Source of the DNA: Thiotrichaceae bacterium
GTDB lineage: Bacteria > Pseudomonadota > Gammaproteobacteria > SZUA-229
Assembly: GCA_002746365.1 (NCBI GenBank)
Contig: NVWZ01000004.1
Span: 152,997-172,290, forward strand
Length of the DNA stretch: 19,294 bases
Direction: 5' to 3'
Shown here one piece after another: positions 158 to 19,294 of the stretch. The position numbers and the translations under genes are program-made. Under the pieces are notes generated by a model, which had not been told where the DNA came from, did not search any database, and saw only the letters and a program-made list of their open reading frames with translations. Numbering within the stretch: the stretch's first letter is position 1; the number at the start of each line of letters is the position of its first letter.

Positions 158-420
158 GTTTTGTATAATTTTGTTGTTGGGTGATTTATGTCGCTGGTTA
201 ATTAAGCCTGCCCATTTGCATTCGGGTTATCCATTTATCGGTGCTGTGAAATACGATAAAGAATTTTTCATTGCTTAATGCTTGCGGCATTATCGGCGTA
301 TTGCAACATATAATCAATAAAAGAGATTGGTTTCTGATTTCTCACGATTGTTTCTTATTGCATAATAAACTTCGCATTGTTATGAGTTTGGATATCTACA
401 ATGTTTTTCGCTTGAGTACT
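158..420. other. Non-coding stretch between the partial gene and dinB
   Basis: The short frames here look like chance: none has a ribosome binding site or protein-like composition. The sequence is AT-rich and must hold the promoter of the reverse-strand gene at 1-157 and the 3' flank of dinB. I see no convincing terminator hairpin. Confidence 0.4.
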
Positions 421-1488: not shown

Positions 1489-1493
1489 CGAGG

Positions 1494-1539
1494 CTGTTTA
1501 TCTTGCTGACAGTTTTGCATTGGGATAAAAGATAAACAG
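1494..1539 (-). promoter_or_regulatory. Inverted repeat immediately upstream of dinB
   Basis: CTGTTTATCTT at 1494-1504 and AAGATAAACAG at 1529-1539 are perfect 11-bp arms around a 24-nt spacer. The dyad fills most of the space between the upstream regulator's stop codon (1557) and the dinB ATG (1488) and ends 6 nt before that ATG. It could be an operator or an RNA stem that limits read-through or dinB translation. It lacks a T-tract, so it is not a standard intrinsic terminator. Confidence 0.5.
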
Positions 1540-1556
1540 TTTGTAGTGACAGGCGA

Positions 1557-3227
1557 TTAATGGATGCCAGCAAGTCGTAGATTATGAATAATGTTCTGTA
1601 ACTGTTTTTTATCTTTTACAGGAAATATCCTGTAGGCATCGTCTGCACGAAAGTTTGGAGCGATAGTGTGGAGCTGATCAGCCTGCCAGCTGGCTTCATC
1701 ATTTTTGCCCAGTTGGCTTAATGTTGCGGTTAACATCATATGGGCGGTCAGCAGGCTAAAGTTTTTATCGATGGCACTGCGAAACACAGGCAGTGCATCT
1801 TCGTATTCTTGCAACGAATAATGCGCCTGGCCTAATACTGACAGGTACTGAGCAGGGTAGTTCGGGTTGAGTTGCATGGCGCGTCGTATCGTCTTTAAGC
1901 CCTGTTCCGGGTTATCGTTATAGAGATGAATTAGCGCGAGAAAGGCATAACCATCAGCGTAGTTTGGCCTTACTTCGAGCGCGCGTTTAAGTGATGTGAT
2001 TGCTTGGGGGTAGTTGTGTAGATGTGTCTGTGCGTAAGCCAGTGCCCAGTGTGCCTGAGGCAGTTGCTTATCGATAGCAACGGCTTTGTTGGCAAGCGTG
2101 ATTGCTGTCGACAGAGATTTATCATTGCTGAAATACCAGCGGTAGCGATAGTCATCAACATGCGTCAGCGCGAGAGCACCATAGGCACGGGAAAAATTCG
2201 GGTCTATTTCGATAGCGTGTTGAAAGTGCTGCCTGGCGAGTACATTTTCGTTATTTGTGCGTTGGGTGTATAAAGCCTGACCTCTGAGGAATTGGTCATA
2301 GGCATTTATATTGTTAGTGTAGCGATGCGCGATACGCTGTTTTTCTTCAGCCGTTAATTTTATTGATAAGGCGGTGATGATGCTGCTGGTGATGTTGTCT
2401 TGCACGGCAAAGACTTCGGTTATCTCGCGATCATAACTCTCAGCCCATAATTGCTGCTGTGTGCTGCTATCGACGAGGATGACATTGACGCGCAATTTAT
2501 TTTTGGCGCGTTGTACGCTGCCAGTTAGGATATAACGGGCCAGTTGTTCTGTATGTTCAGCCTGTTTCGATGGTGTGGCGATTACCCGTAGTGCAGACAG
2601 CTTTGACAGGGCGATGCTGATGTCAGCAGTAATACCGTCACTGAAATATCCCTGATTAGTCTGACCGCTTAAGTTATCAAACGGAAGCACCACGATCGAT
2701 GGCGTGCTGTTTAGTTCACTTATGGGCTCTATGACGTTTGGCATAGTTGTTATCACTATATAGCCGCTGATCACCACCACCGTGAGGAGGATGAGCAGTA
2801 CGGTGCTGCGTATGCTGTGGCTGAAGTCTCGGTTGTTTTCCGGCTGATCTGTACTCGCTGTTAAGCTGCCATTGATTTGTTTATTACTGGTTTGTTTATC
2901 ACTCGGGTGCGATTTTTTTGCCCAGCGCACAGACGCGATTAGGCGATAGCCTTTTTTTGGTACGGTTTCGATATACAGTGGTTTGCGTGAATCATCGCCC
3001 AGAACTTTTCGTAAGCGTGTGATGCAGCTAGTCAGGGCGTCATAACTGATAACTCGATCTGTCCAGACATCGGCCTCCAGCTGATTTCTGCTGATGACTT
3101 CTCCTGGATGATTTGCCAGATACACCAGCAGGGTCATCACCTTGCCTTCCAGTTTGATGTCTTGTTCAGCGTTATGGATACGGTTTGTATCGACATCGAC
3201 GTACCAGTCAGCGATAAAAAAATTCAT
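1557..3227 (-). CDS. CadC-like membrane-anchored winged-helix regulator with TPR repeats
   Basis: This 556-aa one-component regulator has three parts. Residues 1-100 form an OmpR/PhoB-type winged helix (the SRNQLEADVW...RLRKVLGDD...IETVPKKGYRL pattern is diagnostic). A single transmembrane segment lies at about 141-161. The periplasmic part starts with a TolB/FlgO-like segment (VVLPFDNLSGQ, 179-189; YFSDGITADI, 194-203) and continues into several TPR units from about 310 to 520 (for example PNFSRAYGALALTHV and RALEVRPNYADGYAFLALIH). Such ToxR/CadC-type proteins bind DNA while anchored in the inner membrane and sense periplasmic cues. It is divergent from the thioredoxin/TolC/HlyD operon, which makes that operon its most likely target; this is inferred from position. 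dinB follows on the same strand. The signal it senses is unknown. Confidence 0.88.
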   Translation of the reverse strand: MNFFIADWYVDVDTNRIHNAEQDIKLEGKVMTLLVYLANHPGEVISRNQLEADVWTDRVISYDALTSCITRLRKVLGDDSRKPLYIETVPKKGYRLIASVRWAKKSHPSDKQTSNKQINGSLTASTDQPENNRDFSHSIRSTVLLILLTVVVISGYIVITTMPNVIEPISELNSTPSIVVLPFDNLSGQTNQGYFSDGITADISIALSKLSALRVIATPSKQAEHTEQLARYILTGSVQRAKNKLRVNVILVDSSTQQQLWAESYDREITEVFAVQDNITSSIITALSIKLTAEEKQRIAHRYTNNINAYDQFLRGQALYTQRTNNENVLARQHFQHAIEIDPNFSRAYGALALTHVDDYRYRWYFSNDKSLSTAITLANKAVAIDKQLPQAHWALAYAQTHLHNYPQAITSLKRALEVRPNYADGYAFLALIHLYNDNPEQGLKTIRRAMQLNPNYPAQYLSVLGQAHYSLQEYEDALPVFRSAIDKNFSLLTAHMMLTATLSQLGKNDEASWQADQLHTIAPNFRADDAYRIFPVKDKKQLQNIIHNLRLAGIH

Positions 3228-3329
3228 GCTTTATAGCCATTATTGAGCTGATAAGGTCATTTTTCTTCAGCTCTAAGTTTATGTTTATCATAGATATATA
3301 GTTTGCCAGATTATCGTCGTGTTTTCGTC

Positions 3330-3355
3330 ATAACTTTTAAACCGTTTTAAGTTAT
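3330..3355. promoter_or_regulatory. Dyad in the divergent promoter region
   Basis: ATAACTT (3330-3336) and AAGTTAT (3349-3355) are perfect 7-bp arms 12 nt apart, and the interior is also partly symmetric (TTAAA...TTTTAA). The dyad lies in the 172-nt gap between the winged-helix regulator and the thioredoxin/TolC/HlyD operon. It overlaps the region where promoters of both directions should be. A smaller palindrome, ATTAA-TACG-TTAAT, follows at 3354-3367. It is a candidate operator for the neighbouring regulator; the assignment is by position only. Confidence 0.4.
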
Positions 3356-3399
3356 TAATACGTTAATCCATTAGATAGCGACAGACTTTAGAGGGTACC

Positions 3400-4029
3400 A
3401 TGATATCAATAAATCAGCATCTAATCAGACCACAGGCAGGTCTTATATCGACAGGCTTGCTGCTGTTTGTAGTGTTATCTTTTTTTAGTGTAAGTATTTT
3501 TGCTGACAATGCTTTGTCATCTAGCGACAGCAAAATGCCTCGTGACTCGATGGAATACTTTTTTCACCAGAGTTTCAATGATCTGGCAGAAGAACTGGAT
3601 ATCGTGGCCGAAGAAAATAAAAAGGGTGTTTTTATCATGTTCACTGATAAGGACTGCCCCTGGTGTGCAAAGATGAAAGCAACCGTGATGAATCAGGTAG
3701 CCGTACAGGATTACTATCAAGCGAATTTTCGTGTACTGACTATCGATATACGCGGTGATGCGATGATCGTTGATTTCGATGGTAATGAAATTTCGGAGAA
3801 GGACTTTGCTTTCAAGCAGCACCGTGTTCGAGCCACCCCCGTAGTCATGTTTTTTGATGCCAGTGGTAAAAAAATGATGCGTTTTACCGGCATTGTGCGT
3901 GACGTTAAAGAGTTTCTCTGGATGGGTGAATACGTGGTGAATGATGAGTTTAAAAAAATGAATTTTACAAAATATAAGCGTGAAAGGAAGAAACGCGATG
4001 AGCTTGTTTCTTTAGGTGAAACATCTTAG
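3400..4029 (+). CDS. Periplasmic thioredoxin-fold protein (SoxW/DsbD-gamma-like)
   Basis: This 209-aa protein has an N-terminal hydrophobic export segment (about residues 14-35, ending near FADNA) and a thioredoxin fold. The redox motif is DKDCPWCAKMK with C86/C89, and the conserved cis-proline loop is RATPVV (about 144-149). It resembles thioredoxins that act as periplasmic reductants (SoxW, the C-terminal domain of DsbD). The start at 3400 has a GAGGG ribosome binding site 4 nt upstream. It is the first gene of an operon: 14 nt separate it from the TolC-family gene. The pairing suggests disulfide maintenance for the export apparatus or its cargo. The C-terminus is basic (KYKRERKKRDE), which is unusual for a periplasmic protein of this fold. 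The fold is certain; the role is inferred. Confidence 0.85.
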   Translation: MISINQHLIRPQAGLISTGLLLFVVLSFFSVSIFADNALSSSDSKMPRDSMEYFFHQSFNDLAEELDIVAEENKKGVFIMFTDKDCPWCAKMKATVMNQVAVQDYYQANFRVLTIDIRGDAMIVDFDGNEISEKDFAFKQHRVRATPVVMFFDASGKKMMRFTGIVRDVKEFLWMGEYVVNDEFKKMNFTKYKRERKKRDELVSLGETS

Positions 4030-4043
4030 AACGAGTAGCGACG

Positions 4044-5339
4044 ATGCGGGTGTTTTCAAGGGTGAATAAATTATTATTAGTAATGTTTATTGCCGTTAGT
4101 TTTTTTGTCGAGACTGCTACGGGTGAGGCGCTGCCAAACCCGCTAACATTAGATCAGGCATTGTCGTATGCGGCGACAGGCCATCCAAATTTATCACTTG
4201 CTGATGCGCAGCTGGCTTTTGCCGTTTCCAGAAAACTGCAGGTTGAAACCATCAATAATATTGATGCCTATATAGAATTGGCACCTTACGCAGCGATACC
4301 CAGTACCAATAATGATTTTGTAAATGATAGTTACGCCCGGCTGTCAGTCACCAAAACACTGTATGACTTCGGCTACAGTGCATCGCTAGAAGATTCGGCT
4401 GATGAAGACATTTCAAGTCAGCAGCTACTCGCCGCGGCAACACGCAATAAGCAATACATTATTATCATGCAGCGCTATTTTAATGTCATTCTTGCCGACC
4501 TTCATTTCTCTGCGGTGGATGAGGAGATGACTATCCTGTATGTGAAATATGACAAATTACTGGAGCGTCATTCATTAGGTATGATCTCGGATGTGATACT
4601 GATGGAAGCAGAGTCAATCTATCGGGAAGCAGCAGATCGGCGTACCGCCAGCGAGAAGAATCAGTTTTCCAGTCGGCAGCGTCTTGCTATTGCATTAAAT
4701 AAACCCGAAGACATTCCTGCTGACCTGATAAGGCCGCAGCTACCGCAACTGGAACTGACTATTCCTGAACTGGCTGGCTTACTAGATAAGGCACTGATGG
4801 GTAACCTGACGATTACAGCATTGCAGCATGCAGTGCGTGCTAATAAGGCGGCATTGGCGGCATCAAAGCAGGAGTATGGTCCAACGCTTCTGGCAGGTCT
4901 GGAATTAAACAAATATGACCGTCAACTGCGAGGCCGTAACGATGCCAGCATTGGTTTTAACTTGCGCATTCCTTTTGCTAATGGCAGCAGGACACAGGCT
5001 AAATCCGCGCGTATCGTCTCTGTACTGTCAGCATCGCAAGCACGTTATGACCAGGCAAAATTTGCCCTGCGCCAACAATTGTCAGATCTGATCAGTAAGC
5101 TGGAAATATTGAAATTTAAACGTGAAAGTGATGAGCAGCGGCTAGATAGCCGGGGGCTTACTCTGGATAAAAATCGCGCGCGTTACGAGCTGGAGATGCA
5201 GACGACTCTGGGTAGCTCGATGGCGAGATATACCGAAGCAGAATGGATGTCTGCAAAAAATGATTTTGAAGTCGCCACCATCTGGGCGCAGATCGATACC
5301 CTAACGGGCAAAAAACTTTATCAACAAAAGGATAATTAA
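4044..5339 (+). CDS. TolC-family outer-membrane efflux protein
   Basis: This 431-aa protein has a signal peptide (about 1-27, cleavage near ATG-EA) and the repeated helical architecture of TolC/OEP channel proteins. LTLDQALSYAATGHPNLSLA is the family's opening motif. A second half begins around ELAGLLDKALMGNLTITALQ, which repeats the 'L---AL--N--I--L' pattern. Long coiled-coil segments and LRIPFANGSRTQAKSA match the conserved 'L--P-F-GG--RA----A' region. It would trimerise into an outer-membrane duct crossing the periplasm. It is translationally close to its neighbours (14 nt after the thioredoxin gene, 4 nt before the adaptor), so the three are one operon. Length is typical for the family. 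Substrate unknown. Confidence 0.88.
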   Translation: MRVFSRVNKLLLVMFIAVSFFVETATGEALPNPLTLDQALSYAATGHPNLSLADAQLAFAVSRKLQVETINNIDAYIELAPYAAIPSTNNDFVNDSYARLSVTKTLYDFGYSASLEDSADEDISSQQLLAAATRNKQYIIIMQRYFNVILADLHFSAVDEEMTILYVKYDKLLERHSLGMISDVILMEAESIYREAADRRTASEKNQFSSRQRLAIALNKPEDIPADLIRPQLPQLELTIPELAGLLDKALMGNLTITALQHAVRANKAALAASKQEYGPTLLAGLELNKYDRQLRGRNDASIGFNLRIPFANGSRTQAKSARIVSVLSASQARYDQAKFALRQQLSDLISKLEILKFKRESDEQRLDSRGLTLDKNRARYELEMQTTLGSSMARYTEAEWMSAKNDFEVATIWAQIDTLTGKKLYQQKDN

Positions 5340-5343
5340 TCAC

Positions 5344-6114
5344 ATGAAAATTATTGACGGATTATTAGTTATTGCATTATCCATACTTTGTACTTTCACC
5401 TCTGCGGCAGATTATGACGCAATGATTGAGTTGCCTGATCCGATAGAATTAAGTCTGCCAGTATCGGGTGTCATCAAAACGCTAGAAGTGGTCGCTGGCC
5501 AATACGTTAAACAGGGTGAAAAAATGCTGACGCTCGATCAGGTTCCTTTTCAGGCAGCAAAGGTGCATGCAGAATCACGTGTTGCTGTTCAGCAGACATT
5601 GTTGGTCGAATCATTACGTGATTTTAGCAATCGACAGGAGTTATTTGATCGTACCGTGTTGTCGACAGTGCGACTGGAAAATTCTGAACTCAAAGTAAAA
5701 AGAGATAAGGCTTTTTTGAAAAGTGCTGAGGCACAACTTGCGGTGGCAAACTATGATTTATCTTATAGTAGATTAAGTGCGCCTTTTGATGCTCTGGTGC
5801 TGTTTGTGTCTGTGAATCAGGGGCAGTCGATCAATAATGCCATAGAAAGCAAAACACTGATTGCGCTGGTCAGACGAGGGCGTTATCTGGCCAGGTTTAT
5901 GGTTTCAGCTGAGGCCTATAACGGATTACAGATTGGTCGATCGGTAACGGTTAAAACACAGGGTAACATTTATCAGGGTAGTATTAGCAGTATTGCATTT
6001 GAGCTGGTGAGAACAGAGGGCGTCCAGCGTAAATCATATTTGATAGATGCAGCATTCTCATCGGATGAACAGTTACTTCTCATCGGGGATAAAGCCAGTG
6101 TACATATCAATTAA
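5344..6114 (+). CDS. Short HlyD/RND-type periplasmic adaptor
   Basis: This 256-aa protein begins with a signal peptide (about 1-21, cleavage after TSA). It then shows the split barrel-sandwich (lipoyl-like) domain: ELSLPVSGVIKTLEVVAGQ...VKQGEKMLTLD at about 35-65, with its second half at about 140-165 (SYSRLSAPFDALV...VNQGQSI). Between them is a short alpha-hairpin (71-140), followed by a beta-barrel domain (about 170-256). Membrane-fusion proteins of this kind join an inner-membrane transporter to a TolC duct. This one is shorter than most (usually 330-400 aa) and ends without the membrane-proximal domain. No transporter gene follows; the next 220 nt are non-coding and the next gene is on the other strand. 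It may serve a pump encoded elsewhere. No lipobox cysteine is visible at the cleavage site. Confidence 0.82.
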   Translation: MKIIDGLLVIALSILCTFTSAADYDAMIELPDPIELSLPVSGVIKTLEVVAGQYVKQGEKMLTLDQVPFQAAKVHAESRVAVQQTLLVESLRDFSNRQELFDRTVLSTVRLENSELKVKRDKAFLKSAEAQLAVANYDLSYSRLSAPFDALVLFVSVNQGQSINNAIESKTLIALVRRGRYLARFMVSAEAYNGLQIGRSVTVKTQGNIYQGSISSIAFELVRTEGVQRKSYLIDAAFSSDEQLLLIGDKASVHIN

Positions 6115-6337
6115 ATATGTAGCGAATATGTATAAATATCAAGCTGTTTTATGCGCTGTGCCGCTTTACTCTGCTCCGTATGTAATGACCCGTTAACTTA
6201 AAGTGTTAATGTCCGTTTCTACTCATAATTTCATTGGTTGAAAAAGTCGTTCAATGTCGCTTATGTGTGTTTTGAGTCATTCTGGTAAATACAGATTTGT
6301 AATGCTTGGCGCGTATACGTTCCGTAACCTGTCAGCT

Positions 6338-7456
6338 TCATGCTATTCTCGCATTTAATACCTGCCAGTCTTTTTTCTGTTGCATAAAATTCTCTCTTAG
6401 CTCACTGGCTTTTTCTTTTAAAGCGTCCAAGTCGTAGCTTTCCTGAACGACTGTTTTTCTGGCTTCCACCCACAATCGCCTTGCCTGAGAAAATGCATTT
6501 ATCTTTTTCAGAAGGATATCGTATTCGGTCTGCAAGCGAAGAATCATGAGGTCTGCGTGTGGTAGGCCAGCCAATTTGCGTGACGTTTTTGTCAACAACA
6601 TCTGTGCCCGTGATCGTTCTATTTTTTCTAGCGGAGTACGGTAAAGATGTGTCGCCAGGCCCATCCATGCGAGACTGCGGATCAACCATTTGGTTGGATC
6701 AAATTGCCACCAGCGGATACCATTACGGTAATCACGCTGAAAGTTGTGGTGGTAATTATGATAACCCTCACCCATGGTTAATAGTGCAATCAGGCCATTA
6801 TCTCTGGATGAGTTAGTATCAGAATAGGGCTGTCTGCCCCAGACATGAGCCAGTGAGTTGATTAAAAAAGTCATGTGATGTGAGATCGCCAACCGGGCTG
6901 CACCGGCAAGAATCAGCATACCGAGCAGGTCGCCGTGCCACAGGCCAAGAGCAATGGGAATTCCGAAATTGAGAGCTAACACCAGCGGCAGATAATGTTT
7001 ATGCTGCCACATGACGATCTTGTCCTGTTTAAGGTCGCGGCAGTTTGAATATTCTGTGTCTATGGTTGCCGGGTAGTGCCTCAGCATCCATCCGATGTGT
7101 GAATGCCAGAAACCACGCTGGGCAGAATAGGGGTCTTTATCTTTATCGTCAACATAACGATGGTGTCGACGGTGGTCAGATGCCCAGTGCAGAATACTAT
7201 TCTGAGTGGCGTATGTGCCACCGAGTGCGAGTAATAATCTTACAGTCCAGTGTGCCTGATAAGCACGATGAGTCCATAGGCGATGATAACCGGCGGTGAT
7301 GGAAATCTCACAGATGAAAACCCCAACGACCATAGCGGTAATCTGCCAGCCATCAAATCCGTGATAGAAGGCATAAACTGGCACACCGATGACAGTAATT
7401 AACCCAGTAATGACGAAGACGCTGACATTCAACCAGATAATCCCGGGTTTTTTCAT
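6338..7456 (-). CDS. Membrane fatty-acid desaturase (acyl-CoA/acyl-lipid delta-9 type)
   Basis: This 372-aa integral membrane protein carries the three histidine boxes of the di-iron stearoyl-CoA-desaturase-like family: HRLWTH (58-63), HRRHH (95-99) and HNYHH (233-237, within GEGYHNYHHNF). Four or so hydrophobic segments surround them (about 5-30, 38-57, 70-85, 155-195). It would insert a cis double bond into saturated acyl chains using O2 and an electron donor, adjusting membrane fluidity. The C-terminal tail (about 290-372) is charged, probably helical, and not part of the catalytic core. The gene is divergent from fabR, which by homology represses unsaturated-fatty-acid genes. A matching operator-like dyad overlaps this gene's promoter region. 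AGGA lies 7 nt upstream of the ATG. Confidence 0.93.
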   Translation of the reverse strand: MKKPGIIWLNVSVFVITGLITVIGVPVYAFYHGFDGWQITAMVVGVFICEISITAGYHRLWTHRAYQAHWTVRLLLALGGTYATQNSILHWASDHRRHHRYVDDKDKDPYSAQRGFWHSHIGWMLRHYPATIDTEYSNCRDLKQDKIVMWQHKHYLPLVLALNFGIPIALGLWHGDLLGMLILAGAARLAISHHMTFLINSLAHVWGRQPYSDTNSSRDNGLIALLTMGEGYHNYHHNFQRDYRNGIRWWQFDPTKWLIRSLAWMGLATHLYRTPLEKIERSRAQMLLTKTSRKLAGLPHADLMILRLQTEYDILLKKINAFSQARRLWVEARKTVVQESYDLDALKEKASELRENFMQQKKDWQVLNARIA

Positions 7457-7478
7457 AAGATGTTCCTAATTATTTAAT

Positions 7479-7494
7479 GTATACAACTGTACGC
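7479..7494. promoter_or_regulatory. FabR/DesT-type operator candidate at the desaturase promoter
   Basis: GTATACAACTGTACGC is a dyad of the form GnnTACA-nn-TGTAnnC. On the reverse strand it occupies the 17-nt spacer between a possible -35 (TTTACA, complement of 7495-7500) and a weak -10 (TTAAAT, complement of 7472-7477). A repressor bound here would block desaturase transcription. A further TGTACA lies at 7509-7514 and a TGTACG at 7552-7557, closer to fabR. FabR-type proteins recognise TACA/TGTA-like dyads; the assignment is from the symmetric sequence and its position. Confidence 0.6.
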
Positions 7495-7596
7495 TGTAAA
7501 GTTGAAAATGTACAGGTAATCTTCTATATACGGCGTGATAAATGATACGTTTGTACGGTATATTATGTTTTATGCTAATATTTAGAGCTTATTGTT

Positions 7597-8217
7597 ATGA
7601 CTAAAAGCCGCGCCCAACAAAAAGAAATAACCCGTCGTCAGATTATTGATGCGGCTTTTCGCCTGCTCAGCCTGGATCGAAGTTATTCCAGCCTTAGCCT
7701 GCGTGAGGTAACTCGTGAGGCTGGCATCGCGCCGAACTCGTTCTACCGGCACTTTGAAGATATGGAGGAGCTTGGGTTAACGTTAGTCGATGAAGGCGGG
7801 GTTGCCCTGCGTCAGCTGATGAGAAAAGCAAGGCAGCGTATCGAGGACAGCAGTAGTGTCATACGTATTTCAGTCGAGACGTTTATGGAATTCATCCACA
7901 ACAGCCCGCAGGTATTTCACCTGTTATTGCGTGAACGTTCCGGCACTTCACTGGCTTTTCGTAAAGCGGTGTCGCGGGAGCTGCAGTATTTTATCGTCGA
8001 GCTTGCTGATTACATTCAGCACCGTCAGAATTATCCCACTGAAGATGCTCGGATTCAGGCAGAGGCAATGGTGATACTTGTGTTTAACGCCGGTGCTGAA
8101 GCGTTGGATTGCAAGCCTGCAGAGCTAAAGCAGCTTACGGAAAAAGCCATCATACAGCTGCGCTATATCGCAAGAGGTGCAGATGCTCTGTCGCAAGTAA
8201 AAAGAAAAGTTCACTAG
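7597..8217 (+). CDS. fabR: TetR-family repressor of unsaturated fatty-acid genes
   Basis: This 206-aa protein closely follows E. coli FabR as I recall it. The N-terminal helix-turn-helix contains [20 protein letters not shown] followed by [15 protein letters not shown]. Downstream blocks include [36 protein letters not shown] and [17 protein letters not shown]. FabR senses the ratio of unsaturated to saturated acyl-ACP/acyl-CoA and represses fabA/fabB-type genes. Here the neighbour is an aerobic desaturase, as in the Pseudomonas DesT-desC arrangement, so it probably controls that gene. The ATG at 7597 is chosen because the family N-terminus (RAQQKE-TR) starts just inside it. No strong ribosome binding site is visible. 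The 140-nt divergent gap holds the operator candidate. Confidence 0.92.
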
Positions 8218-8561
8218 CTGGGAAGGTCGTAAAATTCAGAGGGGAGTATCAGCAGGCTTTGGCGGCTCACGAAGCAACTTCATATCCTCGTTATCATACC
8301 GATATTAATCAGACAATATATCCTGAATTGTCTGTGGTGACGTAATCTGGATAAACGAATGCGTTGCACAAATTAATAATCAGCTTGTACTTAAATGTAT
8401 ACAACTTGGAGGCTGGGGAGATTATGTGCCACCAAAAAGGTAAGCTGTGAGCAAGAATTATTAACAGACAATATATGAAGTTCAATTTATAATCGAATGT
8501 TCGTGTGGAGTTGTTACACCATACAACCAAATAAACAGTGAAATAAATGGAGTGAAAATTA
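8218..8561. promoter_or_regulatory. Long leader/promoter region of the DUF3604 operon
   Basis: This 344-nt gap holds no convincing gene; a 73-codon reverse frame in it (8309-8530) looks accidental. It has several signals. CAGACAAT (8310-8317) and ATTGTCTG (8327-8334) form a perfect 8-bp inverted repeat. The 12-mer CAGACAATATAT occurs directly repeated at 8310-8321 and 8465-8476. AATGTATACAACT (8394-8406) is identical to 13 nt of the desaturase operator region (7476-7488). A promoter-like TATAAT is at 8488-8493. Confidence 0.55.
8465..8493 (+). promoter_or_regulatory. Candidate sigma-70 promoter for the DUF3604 gene
   Basis: CAGACA (8465-8470), a 17-nt spacer, and a perfect TATAAT -10 (8488-8493). 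The predicted transcript starts near 8500, leaving a leader of about 60 nt before the ATG at 8562, with GGAG (8549-8552) as the ribosome binding site. The -35 falls inside the second copy of the direct repeat CAGACAATATAT. Confidence 0.45.
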
Positions 8562-10505
8562 ATGAATAAACATAACCATTTAAGCAGTGTCGTACTGGCA
8601 TCTCTTATTTCTGTTACACCCGTTCAGGCAATGGACTTTGGAACCCCTAAAGCAGAGATTATCAAGACAGGCTTGTATCCCGGCATTGCTTATTCACCTT
8701 ATGCTCAACGTGATTTCCCGAGTAATGTCTATTGGGGTGATACGCATCTACATACTGGCTTGTCATTGGATGCGGGTCTGTTCGGTAATGTCCTTGGTCA
8801 TGAAGAAGCCTATCGTTTTGCGCGCGGCGAAGAAATCACTGCATCATCAGGAATACAGGTTAAGTTAGGCCGGCCACTGGATTGGCTGGTAATTACCGAC
8901 CACTCCGACATGATGGGCATCGCTACGGACATTCAGCAAGGGACACCCAATATACTGGCAATACCAAAAGGTAAGGAATGGCATGAAGGCTTTAAAAAAG
9001 GCGGCAAGGCGGCGGGTGAAGCCGCTTTCGATTTAATTTCGCACTTCTCGCAGATGACACTGCCTGAAAAAATGGTTTCAGACTATTCTCCTGGCGCTAA
9101 AGTGTATGATGATCTTTGGTACGACATAATCGATACTGCAGATCGTTTTAATGATCCGGGTAAGTTTACTACTCTGATTGGTTATGAGTGGACTTCAGTT
9201 CCTAAAGGTTTCAACATGCACCGAAACGTGATTCTGCGTGATAACGGAGATAAAGCGCGTCAGGTCATTCCGTTGACCACGCAGCCACCGCTTGGTACGA
9301 CCAATCCGCTAGACCTATACAAATGGCTGGACGATTATGAAAAGAAAACCGGTGGTCAAGCCTTTGCCATTTCACATAACGGTAACCTCTCTAACGGCTG
9401 GATGTTTCCCACAGAAATTACCTATGCTGGCGGCAAGGTCGATAAAAACTATGTAGAACTGCGTGCAAAATGGGAGCCACTTTATGAAGTCACGCAGATA
9501 AAAGGTGATGGTGAAGCGCATCCTATGCTTTCACCTGATGATGAGTTTGCCGATTATGAAACCTGGGATGTTGGTAATCTGGATGTCAGCCAGCTTAAAA
9601 CAAATGACATGCTACAGCGTGAATACGCGCGTGAAGCGCTGAAAAACGGTTTAAAACTAGAGAAAAAATTAGGTACTAATCCTTATAAATTCGGTTTGGT
9701 TGGCGCAACCGACAGTCATACTAGTTTGTCGACAGCCGAAGAAGAAAACTTTTTCGGCAAATCCACCAGTGTCGAACCTTCAAAAGATCGAGTATCACAT
9801 CCTTTTGTAACATCGGAACTTGGTGGGATTAGTGGTGATATGTTAGTTGCCTCTGGTTACCAAGGTGTCTGGGCGAAAGAAAATACGCGCGTAGCAATCT
9901 GGGATGCGATGGCGCGCAAAGAAACCTATGCTACAACTGGTCCACGTATTACTGTACGTTTCTTCGGTGGCTGGGATTATAACGACAATGATTTACGCAG
10001 CCGTATTCCGGCTTTCCCCGGTTATGAGAAAGGCGTGCCTATGGGGGGCGATTTGAAGAAAGCACCTAAAGGAAAAAAAGCGCCAAGCTTTATGGTCATT
10101 GCTTTGCGTGATCCTGTCGGTGCCAACCTCGATCGTATACAAATCGTCAAGGGATGGATGGATACAAAAGGTGAAACCTTTGAAAAAGTGTACAACGTGA
10201 GCTGGTCTGGTGATCGCAAACCTAATAGCAATGGTAAATTACCAGCCGTAGGTAACACGGTTGATTTGGAAGCGGCGAACTGGACCAACACCATAGGTGC
10301 TTCCGAATTAGCTACAATCTGGACCGATCCGGATTTTAACGCCAAAGAAAATGCTTTTTATTATGCTCGCATTATCGAAATACCAACACCACGCTGGATT
10401 GTCTATGACAAGGTACGTCTTGGTGCAGAACTTCCAAAGGACGCAACTTTGATCCATCAGGAGCGCGCTTATACTTCACCGATTTGGTACAATCCGAAAG
10501 GTTAA
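8562..10505 (+). CDS. Secreted DUF3604-family protein (PHP-like metal hydrolase fold)
   Basis: This 647-aa protein has a signal peptide (about 1-23, VQA/MDFG). The DUF3604 signature elements are [15 protein letters not shown] (56-70), [10 protein letters not shown] (107-116), IGYEW (206-210), FNMHRN (217-222), AISHNGN (269-275) and GATDSHT (381-387). The histidines and acidic residues match the metal-ligand pattern of PHP-type phosphoesterases, and the opening HLH-(n)-DHSD pattern is the PHP one. No member with a proven reaction comes to mind, so the substrate is left open. It is probably periplasmic. The start has a good ribosome binding site (GGAG). A hairpin follows the stop codon, and the next genes (prolyl isomerase, HupE-like) continue on the same strand. 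The three together look like one functional unit in the envelope. Confidence 0.87.
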
Positions 10506-10525
10506 GTTTGTAATCTATCAATTCT

Positions 10526-10557
10526 GCTAAACGGAGCGCACGGTCGCTCCGTTTAGC
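10526..10557 (+). terminator. Perfect 13-bp hairpin between DUF3604 and the isomerase gene
   Basis: GCTAAACGGAGCG (10526-10538) and CGCTCCGTTTAGC (10545-10557) pair perfectly around a 6-nt loop, 20 nt after the DUF3604 stop. No run of T follows (CATCTATATATC). It may be a weak or Rho-assisted terminator, or an mRNA-protecting stem that makes the first gene more abundant than the two downstream. On the reverse strand there is also no T-tract. Confidence 0.75.
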
Positions 10558-10583
10558 CATCTATATATCATGAAGCAACTATC

Positions 10584-11429
10584 ATGAAAAATTCTAAACT
10601 CACCACATTGTTACGTGAGCCTCTGTTGCATTTTTTGCTAATTGGGGCAGCTCTTTTCCTCTTTTATAATATGCAGAATGAAGGGCGTGTTGATAATAAT
10701 CAAATTATCATCAGCCAGGCTCAGATTGACCATCTGGTTACATTATGGAACAAAAAAAGACAAAGGACACCAACACAAACTGAACTGGGAAGCATGATTC
10801 AGCAGCAGATCCGTGAAGAAGTTATGGTGCGTGAAGCGCTGGCGATGGGGCTGGACAAAAATGACAGAATCATTCGTCGACGACTTGTTCAGAAGATCGA
10901 TTTTATAACATCTGATCTGGCAACACTGGCTGAGCCAACTGAAATACAACTAGCCGATTATCTTGAAACACATAGCGAACAGTTTTCTTTACCTGCTCGC
11001 ATCGATTTCGTGCAGGTTTTTATAAATCCCGAAAAGCATGGCTTAGATACAGATGACTATGCAAACAGTCTACTGAGCGAGCTGACACAGACCGGTGAAA
11101 ATAATGACATAGCAACACTCGGTGACTCTCTTATGATAGACCAACTACATGAACAGATGACCGAGCATGAAGTATCGCGACTGTTTGGCAAGGAATTCGC
11201 AAGGAAGTTGCTTACGCTATCTGTAGACAGCTGGCATGGCCCCATTCAGTCTGGTTATGGTTTTCACCTGATTCGCATCAGCAATAAAAGCGAAGCCCAA
11301 CTGCCGGAATTAAATGTAGTGCGTGAGAAAGTGCGTGTGGAATGGCAGGCTCAACAACGACAAGTCATGGATAAAGTGTTATATGAAAGTCTTCGTCAGC
11401 GTTATGAGATCATCATAGAAAATGATTAA
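10584..11429 (+). CDS. Membrane-anchored parvulin-type peptidyl-prolyl isomerase
   Basis: This 281-aa protein has an N-terminal anchor (LLREPLLHFLLIGAALFLFYN, about residues 9-29). Next comes an N-terminal helical region with REEVMVREALAMGLDKND (SurA/PpiD-like), then a parvulin domain at about 125-245 ending in the typical WHGPIQSGYGFHLIRI strand. It would help fold or assemble exported proteins in the periplasm. The usual parvulin active-site residues are only partly recognisable (FVQVFI in place of the common 'A-HIL'), so it may be more chaperone than enzyme. It overlaps the next gene by 8 nt, so the two are translationally coupled. A five-codon frame (10570-10587) overlaps its ATG. The Shine-Dalgarno is weak. 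Confidence 0.85.
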   Translation: MKNSKLTTLLREPLLHFLLIGAALFLFYNMQNEGRVDNNQIIISQAQIDHLVTLWNKKRQRTPTQTELGSMIQQQIREEVMVREALAMGLDKNDRIIRRRLVQKIDFITSDLATLAEPTEIQLADYLETHSEQFSLPARIDFVQVFINPEKHGLDTDDYANSLLSELTQTGENNDIATLGDSLMIDQLHEQMTEHEVSRLFGKEFARKLLTLSVDSWHGPIQSGYGFHLIRISNKSEAQLPELNVVREKVRVEWQAQQRQVMDKVLYESLRQRYEIIIEND

Positions 11430-12423
11430 GCGAAAAATTATCCAGAAAATTTCGATTGGTTTTGTTCTTCTCTGTTTAACTCAGCTTTCTTTCGCTGACG
11501 AAATCCGTCCTGGCTATCTAGAGATTAAAGAAAACAGCAAGGATGTTTTCTCTGTGTTGTGGAAGGTACCAGCTAAAGGGAATAAAAAATTAAGCCTGCA
11601 GGCGCAACTCCCCGCTAACTGTGTAAATAAAACACAGGCTAATACGCAATTTATCAATGCAGCCTATATACAACGCTGGATCACTTTTTGTGAAGGTGGG
11701 ATGATAGAACAATCTATTTCAATTACAGGCCTGGGATCAACTAACACTGATGTAATACTGCACCTGGAATTTATCAATGGTACTTCTCAGTCTGCGCAGC
11801 TTACGCCTACAAAAAACTTATACACTATTCCAGCTGAAGCTTCCTCGCTGCAGATTGTTAGCACTTATACAATATTTGGCGTTGAACACATTCTGATGGG
11901 TGTGGACCACTTATTGTTTGTCTTTGCGTTGCTATTAATTGTTAGTAGTACTCGAAAATTAGTAGTAACTATTACCGCCTTCACTCTTGCTCACAGCATT
12001 ACTCTAGCTGCTGCAACATTAGGTTTTGTGCACGTGCCACAACAACCGGTTGAAGCTATTATTGCATTAAGCATTTTGTTTCTTACAGTTGAAATCGTTC
12101 ATGGTCGGCAAGGTAGACCGGGTTATGCGGCAAGATGGCCATGGTTGGTCGCTTTCATCTTTGGCTTACTGCACGGCTTTGGTTTTGCAGGTGCCTTATC
12201 TGAAATTGGCTTACCTCAACAAGCTATTCCATTAGCACTTGTCTTCTTTAACGTTGGCGTTGAACTAGGGCAGCTACTCTTTGTGTTGGGTATTGTATTG
12301 CTTACATGGTTGCTACATCAATTTAATCAACAAAAGTTAGTCAGCCGAGCAGAGACAGTTGTTATCTATTCTATTGGTGGACTTTCATCATTCTGGTTAT
12401 TGGAACGGATTAGTTTGTTTTAA
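11422..12423 (+). CDS. HupE/UreJ-family membrane protein
   Basis: This 333-aa protein has a signal-like N-terminus (about 1-25, SFA-DE). A periplasmic beta-rich region of about 115 aa follows, with two cysteines (C67, C90) that could form a disulfide. About six transmembrane helices make up the rest (150-330). The membrane part has the family motifs EHILMGVDHLLFVFALLL (H156, D162, H163), TLAHSITLA (H191) and GLLHGFGFAGAL (H251). In HupE/UreJ, histidines of this kind are linked to nickel transport; this longer, periplasm-extended form is uncharacterised as far as I know. It overlaps the prolyl isomerase gene by 8 nt. No hydrogenase or urease genes are visible, so nickel supply to those enzymes is not supported here. 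A metal link to the PHP-like DUF3604 protein is conceivable. Confidence 0.85.
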   Translation: MIKRKIIQKISIGFVLLCLTQLSFADEIRPGYLEIKENSKDVFSVLWKVPAKGNKKLSLQAQLPANCVNKTQANTQFINAAYIQRWITFCEGGMIEQSISITGLGSTNTDVILHLEFINGTSQSAQLTPTKNLYTIPAEASSLQIVSTYTIFGVEHILMGVDHLLFVFALLLIVSSTRKLVVTITAFTLAHSITLAAATLGFVHVPQQPVEAIIALSILFLTVEIVHGRQGRPGYAARWPWLVAFIFGLLHGFGFAGALSEIGLPQQAIPLALVFFNVGVELGQLLFVLGIVLLTWLLHQFNQQKLVSRAETVVIYSIGGLSSFWLLERISLF

Positions 12424-12807: not shown

Positions 12808-13092
12808 TTGAACAATATCATTTACATAGAGTTTAACAAAAACAATAAAAACGAGAATTATAGTGCAGATGTTTATTCGCATGATATGAAGAAATACCGG
12901 TACCAAACAGTCGCACAGTCAATAAGTGATGCTTATAACAACTTCATAAATGACGCCTTTGAAAGTGGTGTTTTAATCATTCAATGCATTGCTGTTTATT
13001 CCGGATTAATGGCTGATAGAGATACGTCACAACCGCCAGTAAAAGTTTGGTTGCAAGAGAACAAGGTCTCAGATCGACTAATCGAATATTAA
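12808..13092 (+). CDS. Small hypothetical protein (94 aa)
   Basis: The frame opens with a TTG at 12808, with GGG (12798-12800) 7 nt upstream. It encodes a hydrophilic protein with no signal peptide or membrane segment. The N-terminus is Asn/Lys-rich (FNKNNKNENYSADVYSH), and a likely alpha/beta part follows (SISDAYNNFINDAFESGVLI). I recognise no family. It is AT-rich like the genes after it. It sits 66 nt before the PH-domain gene, so it may open that cluster or be independent. The uncommon start codon lowers confidence; ATG at residue 27 is an alternative that would leave 68 aa. Confidence 0.5.
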   Translation: MNNIIYIEFNKNNKNENYSADVYSHDMKKYRYQTVAQSISDAYNNFINDAFESGVLIIQCIAVYSGLMADRDTSQPPVKVWLQENKVSDRLIEY

Positions 13093-13158
13093 ATATTGTC
13101 TCTAATTCGCACGCATGGAACTTTGAACGGCTAACAAACAGCGATATAACAGAATATT

Positions 13159-13734
13159 ATGAATGATACAGATCTAGAGCAATTAAAAAACAATGAAAAC
13201 ACAGATGTTTCATACAAGGATGAAACGATCGTATGGGAGGGTAGACCTTCACAGTGGGTCAATATGGGAACATACCTATGGTGGACGATATTTTTAGTTG
13301 GCTCCATTGTAGCGATGTCCTTCTGGAGTTCTGGCTTTGGTGAAGATTATCCTACAGGAATTAATAGTGCTGTTACCTGGGTAGGGAATGGGCTTATTTC
13401 CCTGTCAATAATAAGCATGTTATTAGCCTATCTAACTGTCCATTATGAACACACCGTTATCACACGCAACAAGATAAAAGAGTCTAAAGGCATCACCAGT
13501 ATTTTCCGACAAGACCTCTACTGTGAAATTAGCGATATCAAAGATATTAAAAGTCCGCCCGCCGGCGTTATGGGTGTTCTAGGTTTGTCGACACTTGTTA
13601 TTGAAACAAATGACGATGACCAGGCGTTGATTAAGATAAGAGGCATCAAACATCGTGAAGAATTAATTCAATTAATACTTCCTATATGGCGAAAGCTGAA
13701 AGTGGATCGCAAAGGATATTTTGGAGACAGATAA
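13159..13734 (+). CDS. Membrane protein with bacterial PH domain (bPH2/YdbT-like)
   Basis: This 191-aa protein begins with a cytosolic stretch containing ETIVWEGRPSQW, a motif typical of bacterial PH (DUF304/bPH2) proteins. Two transmembrane helices follow (about 37-57 and 76-96), then a PH-like beta domain (97-175): YEHTVITRNKIKESKGI, FRQDLYCEISDIKDI, GLSTLVIETNDD. The topology matches single-repeat YdbT-like proteins; the function of the family is poorly known. Its stop overlaps the next gene's ATG (TAATG at 13732-13736), so they are coupled. Its AT-rich composition matches the following two genes. Confidence 0.8.
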   Translation: MNDTDLEQLKNNENTDVSYKDETIVWEGRPSQWVNMGTYLWWTIFLVGSIVAMSFWSSGFGEDYPTGINSAVTWVGNGLISLSIISMLLAYLTVHYEHTVITRNKIKESKGITSIFRQDLYCEISDIKDIKSPPAGVMGVLGLSTLVIETNDDDQALIKIRGIKHREELIQLILPIWRKLKVDRKGYFGDR

Positions 13735-14228
13735 TGCGAAAGAATAAGGAAGTTATTATTTGTGTTTTCTTGTTAGTTTCAACGAATGTAATAGCAGGAC
13801 CCGTTAAAAAAACATACTATGCGATACCCGGCGGCAGCACGGAAGATACGGCATTAGCCTTTGTTGCGAAATACCATGAGCACCTTTATAGAGGCATGTC
13901 ATTAAACAACCTTCAGCAGTATTGGTCAGCCTCAAAGATTGATGAATTCATTTCTGTTGCAAAAGAAATTACCAACGTAAGCGGCAGTAGTCAATTTGTA
14001 GATAGGCAGAGATTACTTGATATTAAACATGCAAATGCGAGATGCGAAAAAGCCGAACTCGTTGATGTCCAGACCAGATGGAAAATTAGTCGTAAGGCAA
14101 AAGTAGAATATTCAGTGAAGAATATTTGTAAAGACTGGATGAAACCATGGAGTCGTCATATCGACATGCGATATTCACGTTCTGCTAATCGCTGGTCTAT
14201 ACATTCAATTATTAATTCGGAAATGTAA
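13734..14228 (+). CDS. Secreted protein of unknown function (164 aa)
   Basis: I chose the ATG at 13734 because it overlaps the previous stop (TAATG), has GGAG (13723-13726) upstream, and gives a clean signal peptide (MRKNKEVIICVFLLVSTNVIAG, cleavage about residue 21). A start 16 codons earlier would bury the signal peptide. The mature protein has two cysteines (in NARCEKAEL and VKNICKDW) that could form a disulfide. Its end alternates strand-like segments (WKISRKAKVEYSVKN...WSIHSII), like an NTF2-type or small beta-sheet domain, but I cannot place it in a family. The next gene begins on the base after its stop codon. Confidence 0.72.
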   Translation: MRKNKEVIICVFLLVSTNVIAGPVKKTYYAIPGGSTEDTALAFVAKYHEHLYRGMSLNNLQQYWSASKIDEFISVAKEITNVSGSSQFVDRQRLLDIKHANARCEKAELVDVQTRWKISRKAKVEYSVKNICKDWMKPWSRHIDMRYSRSANRWSIHSIINSEM

Positions 14229-15146
14229 ATGAACACTTTTATTAAGTCAGCACTAACGGTTGTGGCCTTAATGGCGTCAGTAAACAACGTATGTGCAGTT
14301 GTTGAAATTAAAGAGCCAACGGCTAAAAACGATGTAGATCAAAGCGTGATTTATAATAGTGTTTCAAGAAAGTTTTCACCTGAAGTGACACTGGATATTG
14401 TTCAAGAAATATTTGGTCATAATCTAGATACAAATGACACTACGTTAAGAACGCTATTGCTCGCTATTGGAATGGATCACACGACAAACGAGTCGCCCAA
14501 CTTTAAAAGTTCGATTGGCATACCTTTCATTGTCGATAGGGGACCGGGTTATTGGGTTAAACGATTAAATGCAGGAGATCATGAGATCGAAGTGTTGGTA
14601 AATAATGCATTATTACTGTTGTTTACAAAAGAAGTAATACCAAAGGCAAAAGAAACAGCATTTCAACTTATGGAAGCTGCTGCTGATCGAGGTTACTGGC
14701 CGGCAAGTTTTTATGTAGCTGAAAATAATCTAGTGAAATATTTAGCCGCAGAGATTAGTGAATCATCACCATTAACTAATGAGATGAAATCAAGCTCTAT
14801 TCAGATTATCGCCAAGGATACGATGAGCCGTTATAACGAATGCGCAAAAATGGGATTTGCACCTTGCCAATACCGTATTGGCTTCTGGTTAGTTGGCACT
14901 AAAAAAACGCTAAAAGATGGTTTAGAGGTCCTGCGTCTTTCCATAAATACAACCATGAAGGACTCACGATACAGCGGTGTACTTGATGATGCTCTTGTAT
15001 TGGCAGCTAGAGAAATTGTCTTTAATGGAGAAGAAGCAGGCCTTGATTTCGTTGTTCGTGAAGAATATACAAAACTAATAAAACATCAACTCAGCGCAAG
15101 ATCACAAGATATCGAGAAAGCTAAATTAAGCCAACAATCTAATTAA
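14229..15146 (+). CDS. Secreted Sel1/TPR-like repeat protein (305 aa)
   Basis: The ATG at 14229 directly abuts the previous stop. A signal peptide (about 1-23, VCA/VV) precedes a mostly helical protein. Two segments look like degenerate Sel1 repeats: AFQLMEAAADRGYWPASFYVA (about 144-164), and RYNECAKMGFAPCQYRIGFW followed by KDGLEVLRLS (about 201-238). The order 'A--G---A-Y-LG--' is recognisable but eroded. Sel1-like proteins usually scaffold protein-protein contacts; a partner cannot be named. It closes the PH-domain / secreted / Sel1 run and converges on the DsbA-like gene with a 19-nt gap, without a clear terminator. Confidence 0.7.
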   Translation: MNTFIKSALTVVALMASVNNVCAVVEIKEPTAKNDVDQSVIYNSVSRKFSPEVTLDIVQEIFGHNLDTNDTTLRTLLLAIGMDHTTNESPNFKSSIGIPFIVDRGPGYWVKRLNAGDHEIEVLVNNALLLLFTKEVIPKAKETAFQLMEAAADRGYWPASFYVAENNLVKYLAAEISESSPLTNEMKSSSIQIIAKDTMSRYNECAKMGFAPCQYRIGFWLVGTKKTLKDGLEVLRLSINTTMKDSRYSGVLDDALVLAAREIVFNGEEAGLDFVVREEYTKLIKHQLSARSQDIEKAKLSQQSN

Positions 15147-15165
15147 ATCATAGTTGCAGTTCTTA

Positions 15166-15981
15166 TCATTGAACGATTTTATGAATAGCTTGTAATATCA
15201 TTTCGGACGTTTTATATCCTTTTAGCAGATACTCTTTTCCGGTTTTGTTATCTACAATAAGAACGGCAGGCGTTGCTGTAACACCCGCATTTCGACCCTC
15301 TTCGTAATTGTTATTGATTGTGTCTTTATGATCGTTAGACGCTAAACAATTATTTATTAAACTGCCATTTAGTCCATTGGCACGTAGCACAGCCGTCATG
15401 TTTTTCATGCCTTTACCGTTACCTTCAGTTTCAGCGATAAACTGTTCTATCGCTATCCAGGCGACACGGTTGCCATATGACTCTTTGATGCATTCAATGG
15501 CTTGTGCTTCAACGGCAGCGACCGGGTTGTGACCTGCAAGCGGGAAGTGCTTAAACTCCCAGTTGATTACGCCTTCTGAATGGTCAATTACCTGCTTTAA
15601 GTCTGCATGCATTTTTCGGCAGTACGGACACTCGATGTCACTGAACCCTTGTAGTGTTATCCGTGCATTATTTTTACCGTAAATTAGACGGTTATCCAGA
15701 TTGTCTACAGACGCTAAGCTGTATTCACGTTGCAGGTTAGCCAATCGTTCTCTCGCTTTTTGTTTCTTAACCGATACAAGTCTTTCATCGACTATAGCCA
15801 CAATGTCTTCTTCGCTGAGGATGACGCTTGAAGCCGAATTGATGCATGGCACTATGACGGGCGTTGATGATGCTGTGCTGCTTCCATCGATACGTCTTAG
15901 TTCGTGGTAGAGATAGTAATTAGATACTGTAACTACGCTTGAAAGCAAGATAAATGCGCTCCAAAGACCTGTGTTCTTCAT
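15166..15981 (-). CDS. Membrane-anchored DsbA-family thiol oxidoreductase
   Basis: I chose the ATG at 15981 over the in-frame TTG at 15993 because GAGAG lies just upstream and MKNTGLWSAFILLSSVV is a normal anchor. The protein is 271 aa with a membrane segment at about 4-25. A coiled or helical linker follows (about 55-90, EEDIVAIVDERLVSVKKQKARERL), then a DsbA-type thioredoxin domain. It contains FSDIECPYCRKMH (C118/C121), helical-insert residues (FKHFPLAGHNPVA) and the cis-proline loop VTATPAVLIVDN. It would act on cysteines in the periplasm. Anchored DsbA/DsbC-like proteins are common in conjugative elements, where they help fold transfer proteins. The element-like context on its right fits that, but no transfer genes are in view. 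Confidence 0.85.
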   Translation of the reverse strand: MKNTGLWSAFILLSSVVTVSNYYLYHELRRIDGSSTASSTPVIVPCINSASSVILSEEDIVAIVDERLVSVKKQKARERLANLQREYSLASVDNLDNRLIYGKNNARITLQGFSDIECPYCRKMHADLKQVIDHSEGVINWEFKHFPLAGHNPVAAVEAQAIECIKESYGNRVAWIAIEQFIAETEGNGKGMKNMTAVLRANGLNGSLINNCLASNDHKDTINNNYEEGRNAGVTATPAVLIVDNKTGKEYLLKGYKTSEMILQAIHKIVQ

Positions 15982-15996
15982 GATTTCTCTCAAAAG

Positions 15997-18126: not shown

Positions 18127-18612
18127 CTAATTCGTTTTATAAAGAGCTGACGATCCACGAAGTGCAGCGATTAACAAACTCCCGTCACTTAACTCAGTTT
18201 GCTTTTGCAGCTGAGCGAGTACCAGTGCTGTAATTTGAAACGCCTGTCCAATAGGGACAGGCAAAGAGAAGTTATTGCCGGCACCTTGAGTGGCATTGAT
18301 ATACATCTTATTGGCCTGTCGCTCAATGATAATACCTTTGTCGGGTCGTTTGAATCGTGCTATTGGCAGGTAGCCTAAACACACACTGGCCAGTATCGGC
18401 AATTCGCTGTCACTTAATTGCAGTGTGATTTTTCTATCCCACTTAACGCCATCGCTGTCTTTTGGCGCCACATCGAGATTAACCGTGTCTCCGCAGACCT
18501 GTCCATTTTTATGAAGCTGTGTTGCCTCAACCGTTAACGCACCGGCTGAACCATAGCAACGTACCTTTGCCTGATCCGCAGGCGATAGTTCCGCTGGCTG
18601 CTTATCTAACAT
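18127..18612 (-). CDS. Uncharacterised protein (161 aa) behind the Tus-family gene
   Basis: The reverse frame runs from ATG at 18612. A TTG at 18654 would add 14 residues but would overlap the upstream gene by 53 nt rather than 11. Neither start has a clear Shine-Dalgarno. The protein is soluble in appearance and mostly beta-strand in the first two thirds (VRCYGSAGALTVEA, RKITLQLSDSELPILASVCLGYL, KGIIIERQANKMYINATQG). A helix follows near the end (GQAFQITALVLAQLQKQTEL). It has three cysteines. I do not recognise the family. Its overlap with the Tus-family gene suggests co-translation and a shared role in the element. Confidence 0.65.
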   Translation of the reverse strand: MLDKQPAELSPADQAKVRCYGSAGALTVEATQLHKNGQVCGDTVNLDVAPKDSDGVKWDRKITLQLSDSELPILASVCLGYLPIARFKRPDKGIIIERQANKMYINATQGAGNNFSLPVPIGQAFQITALVLAQLQKQTELSDGSLLIAALRGSSALYKTN

Positions 18613-19294
18613 AACGGTAAAGGCGCAGTGATGAAATGAATACTTCGTGCTCAATCGTGCTTAATCGATCTAGTTTCTTAACTTTAATGCCACTGACTTC
18701 CGGATTTTCACGCCAGAGCATACGCGGCAGGTTGGCTTGTTGTGCAATGACAATACCTGAGACCGGGCAGGACTTGCGTGTAAGGATATCGTGTTCTTTG
18801 TAGGCGTAATTTGCTCGCAGTTGATTTGGCAGTTTGAGTTTGCGCAAAAATACTTCATCGCGTGGGCATTGACTGAGGATATCGATAGCAACATCGCGTT
18901 TTCTATCATCTTTGAGACTTCGGGCAAGAGCTTCGGCTTCTACCATGGTTACTTTTTTACTGCGTGAATGTGTCGTCGCCCAGGTCCAGCTGAACACGTC
19001 CAAGTGTTCGGGCATGATACGTATCTTGGCGTAGCAACGTTTCAGATTCAGTGACTGGATACCTGCAGTCGCCATGGCATCTTTGATCGCACCTTCGCGT
19101 CTACCTTTATCTTCCATTTCATCACTGATGAGCTTGTCGATCTTCGCTACAGCGATGTCAGTCTTTGTCTGATACTGCCGAATCTCAGCAACAGCCTCTT
19201 TGAAGGCATCTTTTGCTTTGTTTAGCTGTTCAATCGTTGCCACCGTCTTAGGCGAGGCACACAGGACGCCGGCTTCTGCGAGGTATTCGTCTTC
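18602..19294 (-). CDS. Tus-family DNA replication terminus site-binding protein, 5' end outside window
   Basis: The frame is open to the window edge. A GTG at 19243 is internal, since the upstream codons (EAGVLCASPKT) are also conserved. The visible 230 residues follow the C-terminal two thirds of E. coli Tus, as I recall that sequence. GVLC matches GVLC, and LNKAKDAFKEAV matches INKLKTTFEHIV. AGIQSLNLKR...FSWTWATTH matches PGLITLNAYR...FGWANKH, whose final histidine is the Ter-locking H144. SCPVSGIVIA matches ACPTPLIALI, and SSLRLYRYVR matches PRLHLYVAD at the C-terminus. Tus binds Ter DNA and stops replication forks from one side. About 80-90 residues should lie beyond the window. Divergence and neighbourhood suggest an element-borne version with its own site. 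The family call is from remembered sequence, not a search. Confidence 0.75.
   Translation of the reverse strand, partial: EDEYLAEAGVLCASPKTVATIEQLNKAKDAFKEAVAEIRQYQTKTDIAVAKIDKLISDEMEDKGRREGAIKDAMATAGIQSLNLKRCYAKIRIMPEHLDVFSWTWATTHSRSKKVTMVEAEALARSLKDDRKRDVAIDILSQCPRDEVFLRKLKLPNQLRANYAYKEHDILTRKSCPVSGIVIAQQANLPRMLWRENPEVSGIKVKKLDRLSTIEHEVFISSLRLYRYVR

Follow-up and report, generated by a model that had tools for sequence, protein, structure and literature searches.

The window analysed here is a 19,294-nucleotide stretch of contig NVWZ01000004.1 from a Thiotrichaceae bacterium (assembly GCA_002746365.1), and it breaks off inside a reverse-strand gene for a Tus-like protein. The window holds the C-terminal 230 codons of this gene (18602..19294, (-) strand), in a frame that stays open to the window's end. 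On the whole contig (hereafter C11) the start codon is found about 230 bp past that end, at G000:C11:172518, and the complete protein has 306/307 aa. The base directly past the window end is ambiguous; the codon, CGN, encodes Arg whichever base is present, and Arg is also what the copy of this protein in the database (P0002) has there. The end of the Tus-like gene overlaps by 11 bp a second reverse-strand gene (18127..18612), which we call the partner gene. It encodes a protein of about 161 aa from a family without assigned function; we chose the ATG at 18612 as its start, the mechanically defined open reading frame (ORF) beginning at a TTG at 18654. The partner gene was present in 15 of the 16 loci of the Tus-like family examined (it is missing in L005) and in none of five loci of other Tus families, and searches of Pfam, NCBIfam and PHROGs assigned its product to no family under the limits applied.

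A protein database search with the Tus-like protein gave 57 matches at E <= 10, all of them at 2.6e-37 or better, and 55 of these were kept as a family set (A1) after exclusion of two short ones. Sequence searches of Pfam, NCBIfam, PHROGs and the PDB, with the single protein or the family profile, left the protein unnamed. Because PF05472 gave no match at E up to 10 and NF002810 only 12.7 bits, far under its cut-off of 323, we file the family as a putative divergent sister branch outside these two curated families. NF002810 was matched by 6 of the 55 family members (best 8.3e-6), and BLASTP of the window protein against the IncC Tus reached only E 0.009. Profile comparison of the family with 59 halomonad-type sequences by hhalign gave a probability of 99.7 and an E of 2.3e-26, and in a structural alignment E. 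coli Tus (PDB 1ecr) and the Tus-like protein have a common fold over 256 residues at 16% identity, the two-lobed Tus fold being retained whole. Homology and fold together show that the gene encodes a divergent Tus-fold protein, carried as described below by a large marine conjugative plasmid. An earlier sequence-only reading of the window had called the gene a clearly divergent Tus-family member; the divergence is borne out, as is the kinship through the halomonad-type profile and the fold, and the PF05472 search that it had proposed gave no match.

That reading also placed the gene on a mobile element rather than at a chromosomal terminus and proposed extending the contig towards the N-terminus and towards transfer or integrase genes; the placement on an element was right. 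C11 has 187,775 bases and carries the same 99 bases at both ends, so the molecule is a circle of 187,676 bp. Many C11 ORFs match the Vibrio tubiashii plasmid p123 with the order kept (MobH, ParA, ParB, a transfer operon of integrative and conjugative element (ICE) type, RecT with an exonuclease, DsbA, the Tus-like gene with its partner, and DUF1173), and TraD is also among the matching proteins. C11 is thus a p123-type conjugative plasmid, with a circular replicon, rep, par, MobH and ICE-type transfer genes in p123 order; an integrase gene lies in the wider region, and an initiator-like ORF at C11:29049-30104 has a weak RPA match (E 0.0015). When 72,556 plasmid records were searched with the Tus-like protein nine matches were obtained, eight at 41-54% identity in Microbulbifer, Vibrio and Marinobacter and the ninth at 22.6% in Halomonas. 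A search with the p123 RepB (best 60 of 1216 records) returned seven records at >=48% identity, the next being at 32.8%; all seven carry the Tus-like gene, which therefore belongs to the plasmid backbone. Viral contigs scanned with the family and confirmed by tblastn gave none. In NZ_CP152381.1 the Tus-like gene and its partner span the record start (216048-216927 + 1-471), and the gene table of that plasmid has no tus entry.

An unbiased count of 12-mers in nine representative upstream regions found TCTGGTATAATA in seven of them with one mismatch allowed, against at most three in five shuffles. The exact TCTGGTATAGTA occurs twice in the source genome of the window, both times close upstream of the Tus-like gene, and in this genome and ten further genomes or records 13 of the 15 exact sites are located <=1 kb upstream of a Tus-like gene. 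We then scanned plasmids with a 17-bp scoring matrix for TCTGGTATARTA-like sites built from 13 sites. Each of the nine complete plasmids contains one divergent (inverted) pair of such sites, 218-237 bp apart; convergent pairs were absent from the scan of these plasmids, and the single tandem pair, in p123, involves the promoter-proximal site, a further TCTGGTATARTA-like copy in or near the Tus-like gene's own promoter. On C11 the pair is at G000:C11:172662-172896, beyond the window and closely upstream of the Tus-like gene (about 0.15 kb); the distance is 2-4 kb in most Marinobacter plasmids and 55 kb in SBY-1. The matrix found a pair in five of eight further loci, of which L006-L008 are near copies of p123 in this region, L005 had contributed to the matrix and L009 is independent. 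It missed one in L010, L017 and L032; in L017 inspection by eye alone picked out a pair of the variant GGTTGGTATAATA with a spacing of about 180 bp. Of 369 gammaproteobacterial genomes only the source genome itself contains TATACCAGA-N(200-229)-TCTGGTATA, and a reversed control pattern occurs in one other; the 69 stretches that match the unreversed pattern in IMG/VR we attribute to background, given how large that collection is. The sequence-only reading had expected the protein to have its own, possibly new, Ter sequence and had proposed a repeat search. A conserved inverted pair without significant similarity to E. coli Ter does exist, and its sites are candidates for binding by the Tus-like protein.

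The same layout was found with a canonical Tus. The IncC plasmid pSX2_LC6 (NZ_CP043904.1) has an annotated Tus at 102,995-103,870, beside umuDC, and its skew minimum and maximum are at 1,186 (repA, 1-1101) and 102,754. A 16-bp inverted pair 200 bp apart at 102,722-102,937 straddles this maximum, is the sole inverted repeat >=12 bp at 120-320 bp spacing in the record, and provides candidate IncC Ter sites that differ in sequence from those of the marine plasmids. Out of four further plasmids with canonical tus, three have an inverted pair of 16-19-bp sites upstream of the gene (loci L185, L187 and L188): the sites of pVb677-tet and pAsmA are nearly the same as in pSX2_LC6, and those of Proteus pG32-177 differ and contain GTATGTTG as E. 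coli Ter does. The fourth, Klebsiella pWP7-S18-CRE-02_1 (canonical Tus, not MOBH-typed), showed no such pair in its flanks. IncC-type Tus was present in 1331 of the 72,556 plasmid records (tblastn, all identity bands).

Could the TCTGGTATARTA sites be mere promoters that serve tus and the genes facing outward and that a Tus-like protein with intact fold may repress, the pair having no terminus function? The core TGGTATAAT fits the extended -10 element, TGnTATAAT, the proximal copy stands 40-100 bp ahead of the start codon in several loci, and the outward site of NP-4 is about 85 bp ahead of umuD. We nevertheless consider this explanation unlikely. The spacing stays within 218-237 bp in all nine plasmids despite differing flanking genes, the inner site of NP-4 aims into the 3' end of an opposite-strand ATPase gene, that of M3C lies within a response-regulator gene, and the IncC pair keeps the layout with a different sequence.

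The position of the pair was compared with cumulative GC skew, with the origin set at rep/par, where the skew minimum falls. The skew maximum of p123 falls within tus, 1.1 kb from the pair, and the corresponding distance is 0.4 kb in pTHAF38_a, 3.7 kb in NP-4 and pMAD49a, and 8.8 kb in SBY-1. In M3C, whose origin is uncertain, 2.7 kb separate the raw maximum from the pair; this plasmid was excluded from the marker-distance and likelihood comparisons because it has no RepB match and its ParA/ParB matches are weak. The median distance to the skew maximum, as a fraction of the circle, was 0.036 for the pair, 0.048 for tus, 0.185 for MobH and 0.264 for TraD. A terminus opposite the origin was rejected: its median distance to the skew maximum is 0.294 of the circle, and the pair is closer in 8/8 plasmids. 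The mean pair distance has a P of 2.5e-5 under eight independent random markers, the plasmids themselves being related. A two-replichore likelihood preferred the pair over the halfway point in 9/9 plasmids (IncC included) and over one-way replication in 8/9, pMAQU02 being the exception. The pair and its spacing are conserved, and in most plasmids the skew maximum is near it.

Between the two sites, in the C11 plasmid and eight others, there is a pyrimidine-rich tract with about 10-bp phasing, and in several a small GC-rich hairpin. A 40-bp extreme of pyrimidine/purine bias (reached by <=0.0025 of plasmid windows) falls inside the pair in seven of ten plasmids and is absent there in NP-4, pMAQU02 and pMAD49a. 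The tract and hairpin, the integrase gene in the wider region and the distance of 55 kb to tus in SBY-1 would also suit a different cis site, such as a transfer origin or a site of dimer resolution or lagging-strand priming, bound by another protein and with tus as a mere neighbour. Such a site is quite unlikely in our judgement, since the extreme tract is missing in three of the ten plasmids, the skew has its maximum near the pair and its minimum at rep/par, and in pSX2_LC6 the gene mobI, which has the IncC oriT beside it, is 15 kb from the pair.

E. coli Tus grips the flipped cytosine of Ter with F140 and H144, among other residues. In profile alignments that are remote in that stretch, the Tus-like family shows no counterpart of F140, and H144 aligns with Lys or with no His. 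The invariant His of the family (H185) comes four residues after an invariant Trp, with the same spacing as E. coli W172 to H176, so the histidine that the sequence-only reading had equated with H144 is most likely H176. The absence of counterparts of F140 and H144, together with the strict linkage to a partner of unassigned function, would fit a protein that no longer arrests forks and whose remaining task is either regulation through DNA binding or some other plasmid function shared with the partner. We regard this as very unlikely: the two-lobed fold is complete, the gene is retained in all seven plasmids with the closest RepB (>=48%, best 60 of 1216 records), and the skew changes sign near the tus locus in several plasmids.

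We therefore consider it probable that the locus is a compact Tus/Ter replication terminus, consisting of a divergent Tus-fold terminator protein and an inverted pair of TCTGGTATARTA-like sites on a marine plasmid. Replication would begin at the rep/par locus and both forks would meet at the pair, where the Tus-like protein probably binds the TCTGGTATARTA-like sites; the pair would act as a very small fork trap, like the terminus of plasmid R6K. The promoter-proximal copy may serve autoregulation of tus, and the partner protein and the pyrimidine-rich tract could have a role in the terminus. The best matches among the sites along the chain E. coli, Proteus, IncC and Tus-like family run in one common direction, which would point the blocking sides inward and give a trap some 220 bp long; we treat this as no more than a lead because none of the between-family steps is significant singly (P 0.087 to 0.86). 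The sequence-only reading had likewise proposed a fork trap; its plasmid-borne Tus relative now comes with an inverted pair that in most plasmids lies near the skew maximum, and fork arrest itself we only infer.

Several observations weigh against this terminus. The raw skew maximum of the C11 plasmid is 14 kb from its pair (1.4 kb if detrended), and those of pMAQU02 and pHL2708Z5 are about 30 kb away. An integrase gene lies close to the maximum as well (median 0.067, n = 7), tus is nearer to it than the pair in 4/8 plasmids, and the plasmids share a backbone and so are not independent. When the skew to the left and right of the pair was contrasted locally, the rank was <=0.05 in only three of nine plasmids (p123 at three scales, SBY-1 and M3C at two of three each). 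The matrix was built mostly from the very sites it then recovered, the TGGTATAAT core resembles a promoter element, and the lock residues are not conserved. We rejected the idea that the sites are Ter of the E. coli kind in sequence, since their best matches did not exceed those of shuffled sequences (P 0.09 to 1.0).

Elsewhere in the window, a backbone block at 12808..15993 contains four small genes of unassigned function on the (+) strand and a DsbA-like gene on the (-) strand, with p123 counterparts in the same order at 55.2-59.6 kb. The first 12.4 kb (error-prone polymerase, desaturase, TolC- and HupE-like genes and others) are chromosome-like with no p123 counterpart there, and for this reason positions 1-12400 are probably cargo inserted in the plasmid. 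Other parts of C11 include ORFs matching p123 BREX genes at 23-50% identity in a different position (G000:C11:6151-20658), a CsrA followed by a uracil-DNA-glycosylase-like protein (L002:7677-8553), and a 1623-aa protein with NERD, protein-kinase and SF1 helicase domains beside an insertion-sequence-like transposase (L002:11113-15981, about 179.6-184.5 kb of C11), which lies near the skew plateau and looks like a defence gene. Contig DBSW01000087.1 (L006) is assigned to a Dehalococcoidia metagenome-assembled genome, and its DNA is near-identical to Vibrio/Alteromonas plasmid loci; that assignment is probably a binning error.

Plasmid-borne Tus is already known as a kind, because mobile and plasmid tus genes, plasmid termini and Ter autoregulation appear in earlier papers. 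PMC6549158 used PF05472 to find mobile and plasmid-borne tus genes and proposes their domestication, PMC4036041 describes the Tus of IncA/C, IncT and pAQU1, PMC10331603 covers the R6K and R1 termini, with both forks blocked at that of R6K and tus autoregulated via Ter, and PMC8707476 uses a vicinal Ter as a search rule. In PMC7858055 the E. coli ter consensus was used to search a chromid of Pseudoalteromonas, and no site was found. The sites used by Tus relatives outside Enterobacterales are not known, and in the openly available text on IncC, conjugative or Marinobacter plasmids with Tus or ter (subscription papers lying outside this scope) we found no description of pair sites. As far as these searches reach, what is new is the divergent branch, its ~161-aa partner and concrete candidate sites, both for this branch and for IncC, where the same method was used. 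With such sites two questions become testable: whether the E. coli cytosine lock is dispensable for fork arrest, and whether, in line with the proposal of PMC6549158, a small plasmid terminus was the ancestor of chromosomal fork traps. We are evenly divided on a broader reading, in which large MOBH conjugative plasmids of gammaproteobacteria, IncC included, would share a compact terminus made of an inverted Ter pair about 160-280 bp apart that encloses a pyrimidine-rich tract, together with a plasmid Tus, site and Tus co-diverging, and in which the Tus of the marine branch would have lost the E. coli lock residues and gained an obligate partner.

Compared with E. coli Tus-Ter (PF05472, 1ecr), the marine system has the same fold, a similar length and a site upstream of the gene. 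It differs in being plasmid-borne, in having two sites about 220 bp apart where the E. coli trap extends over many kb, and in its 16% identity, its lack of F140/H144 counterparts and a site sequence without significant similarity. The tus genes of IncC, IncT and pAQU1-type plasmids are also on conjugative MOBH plasmids (PMC6549158 and PMC4036041), and pSX2_LC6, pVb677-tet, pAsmA and pG32-177 likewise have an inverted site pair upstream of tus; however, these Tus proteins exceed the PF05472 cut-off (3/3 tested), their site sequence is another one, and no partner gene was seen in the flanks listed. Halomonadaceae Tus proteins have clear profile homology to the Tus-like family, but among the matches listed many are on long contigs (source-database annotation), and the plasmid copy KO116 has no partner gene. 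The R6K terminus resembles the proposed one in its two inverted sites close together in mid-plasmid, whereas R6K relies on the Tus of its host and on E. coli-type Ter.
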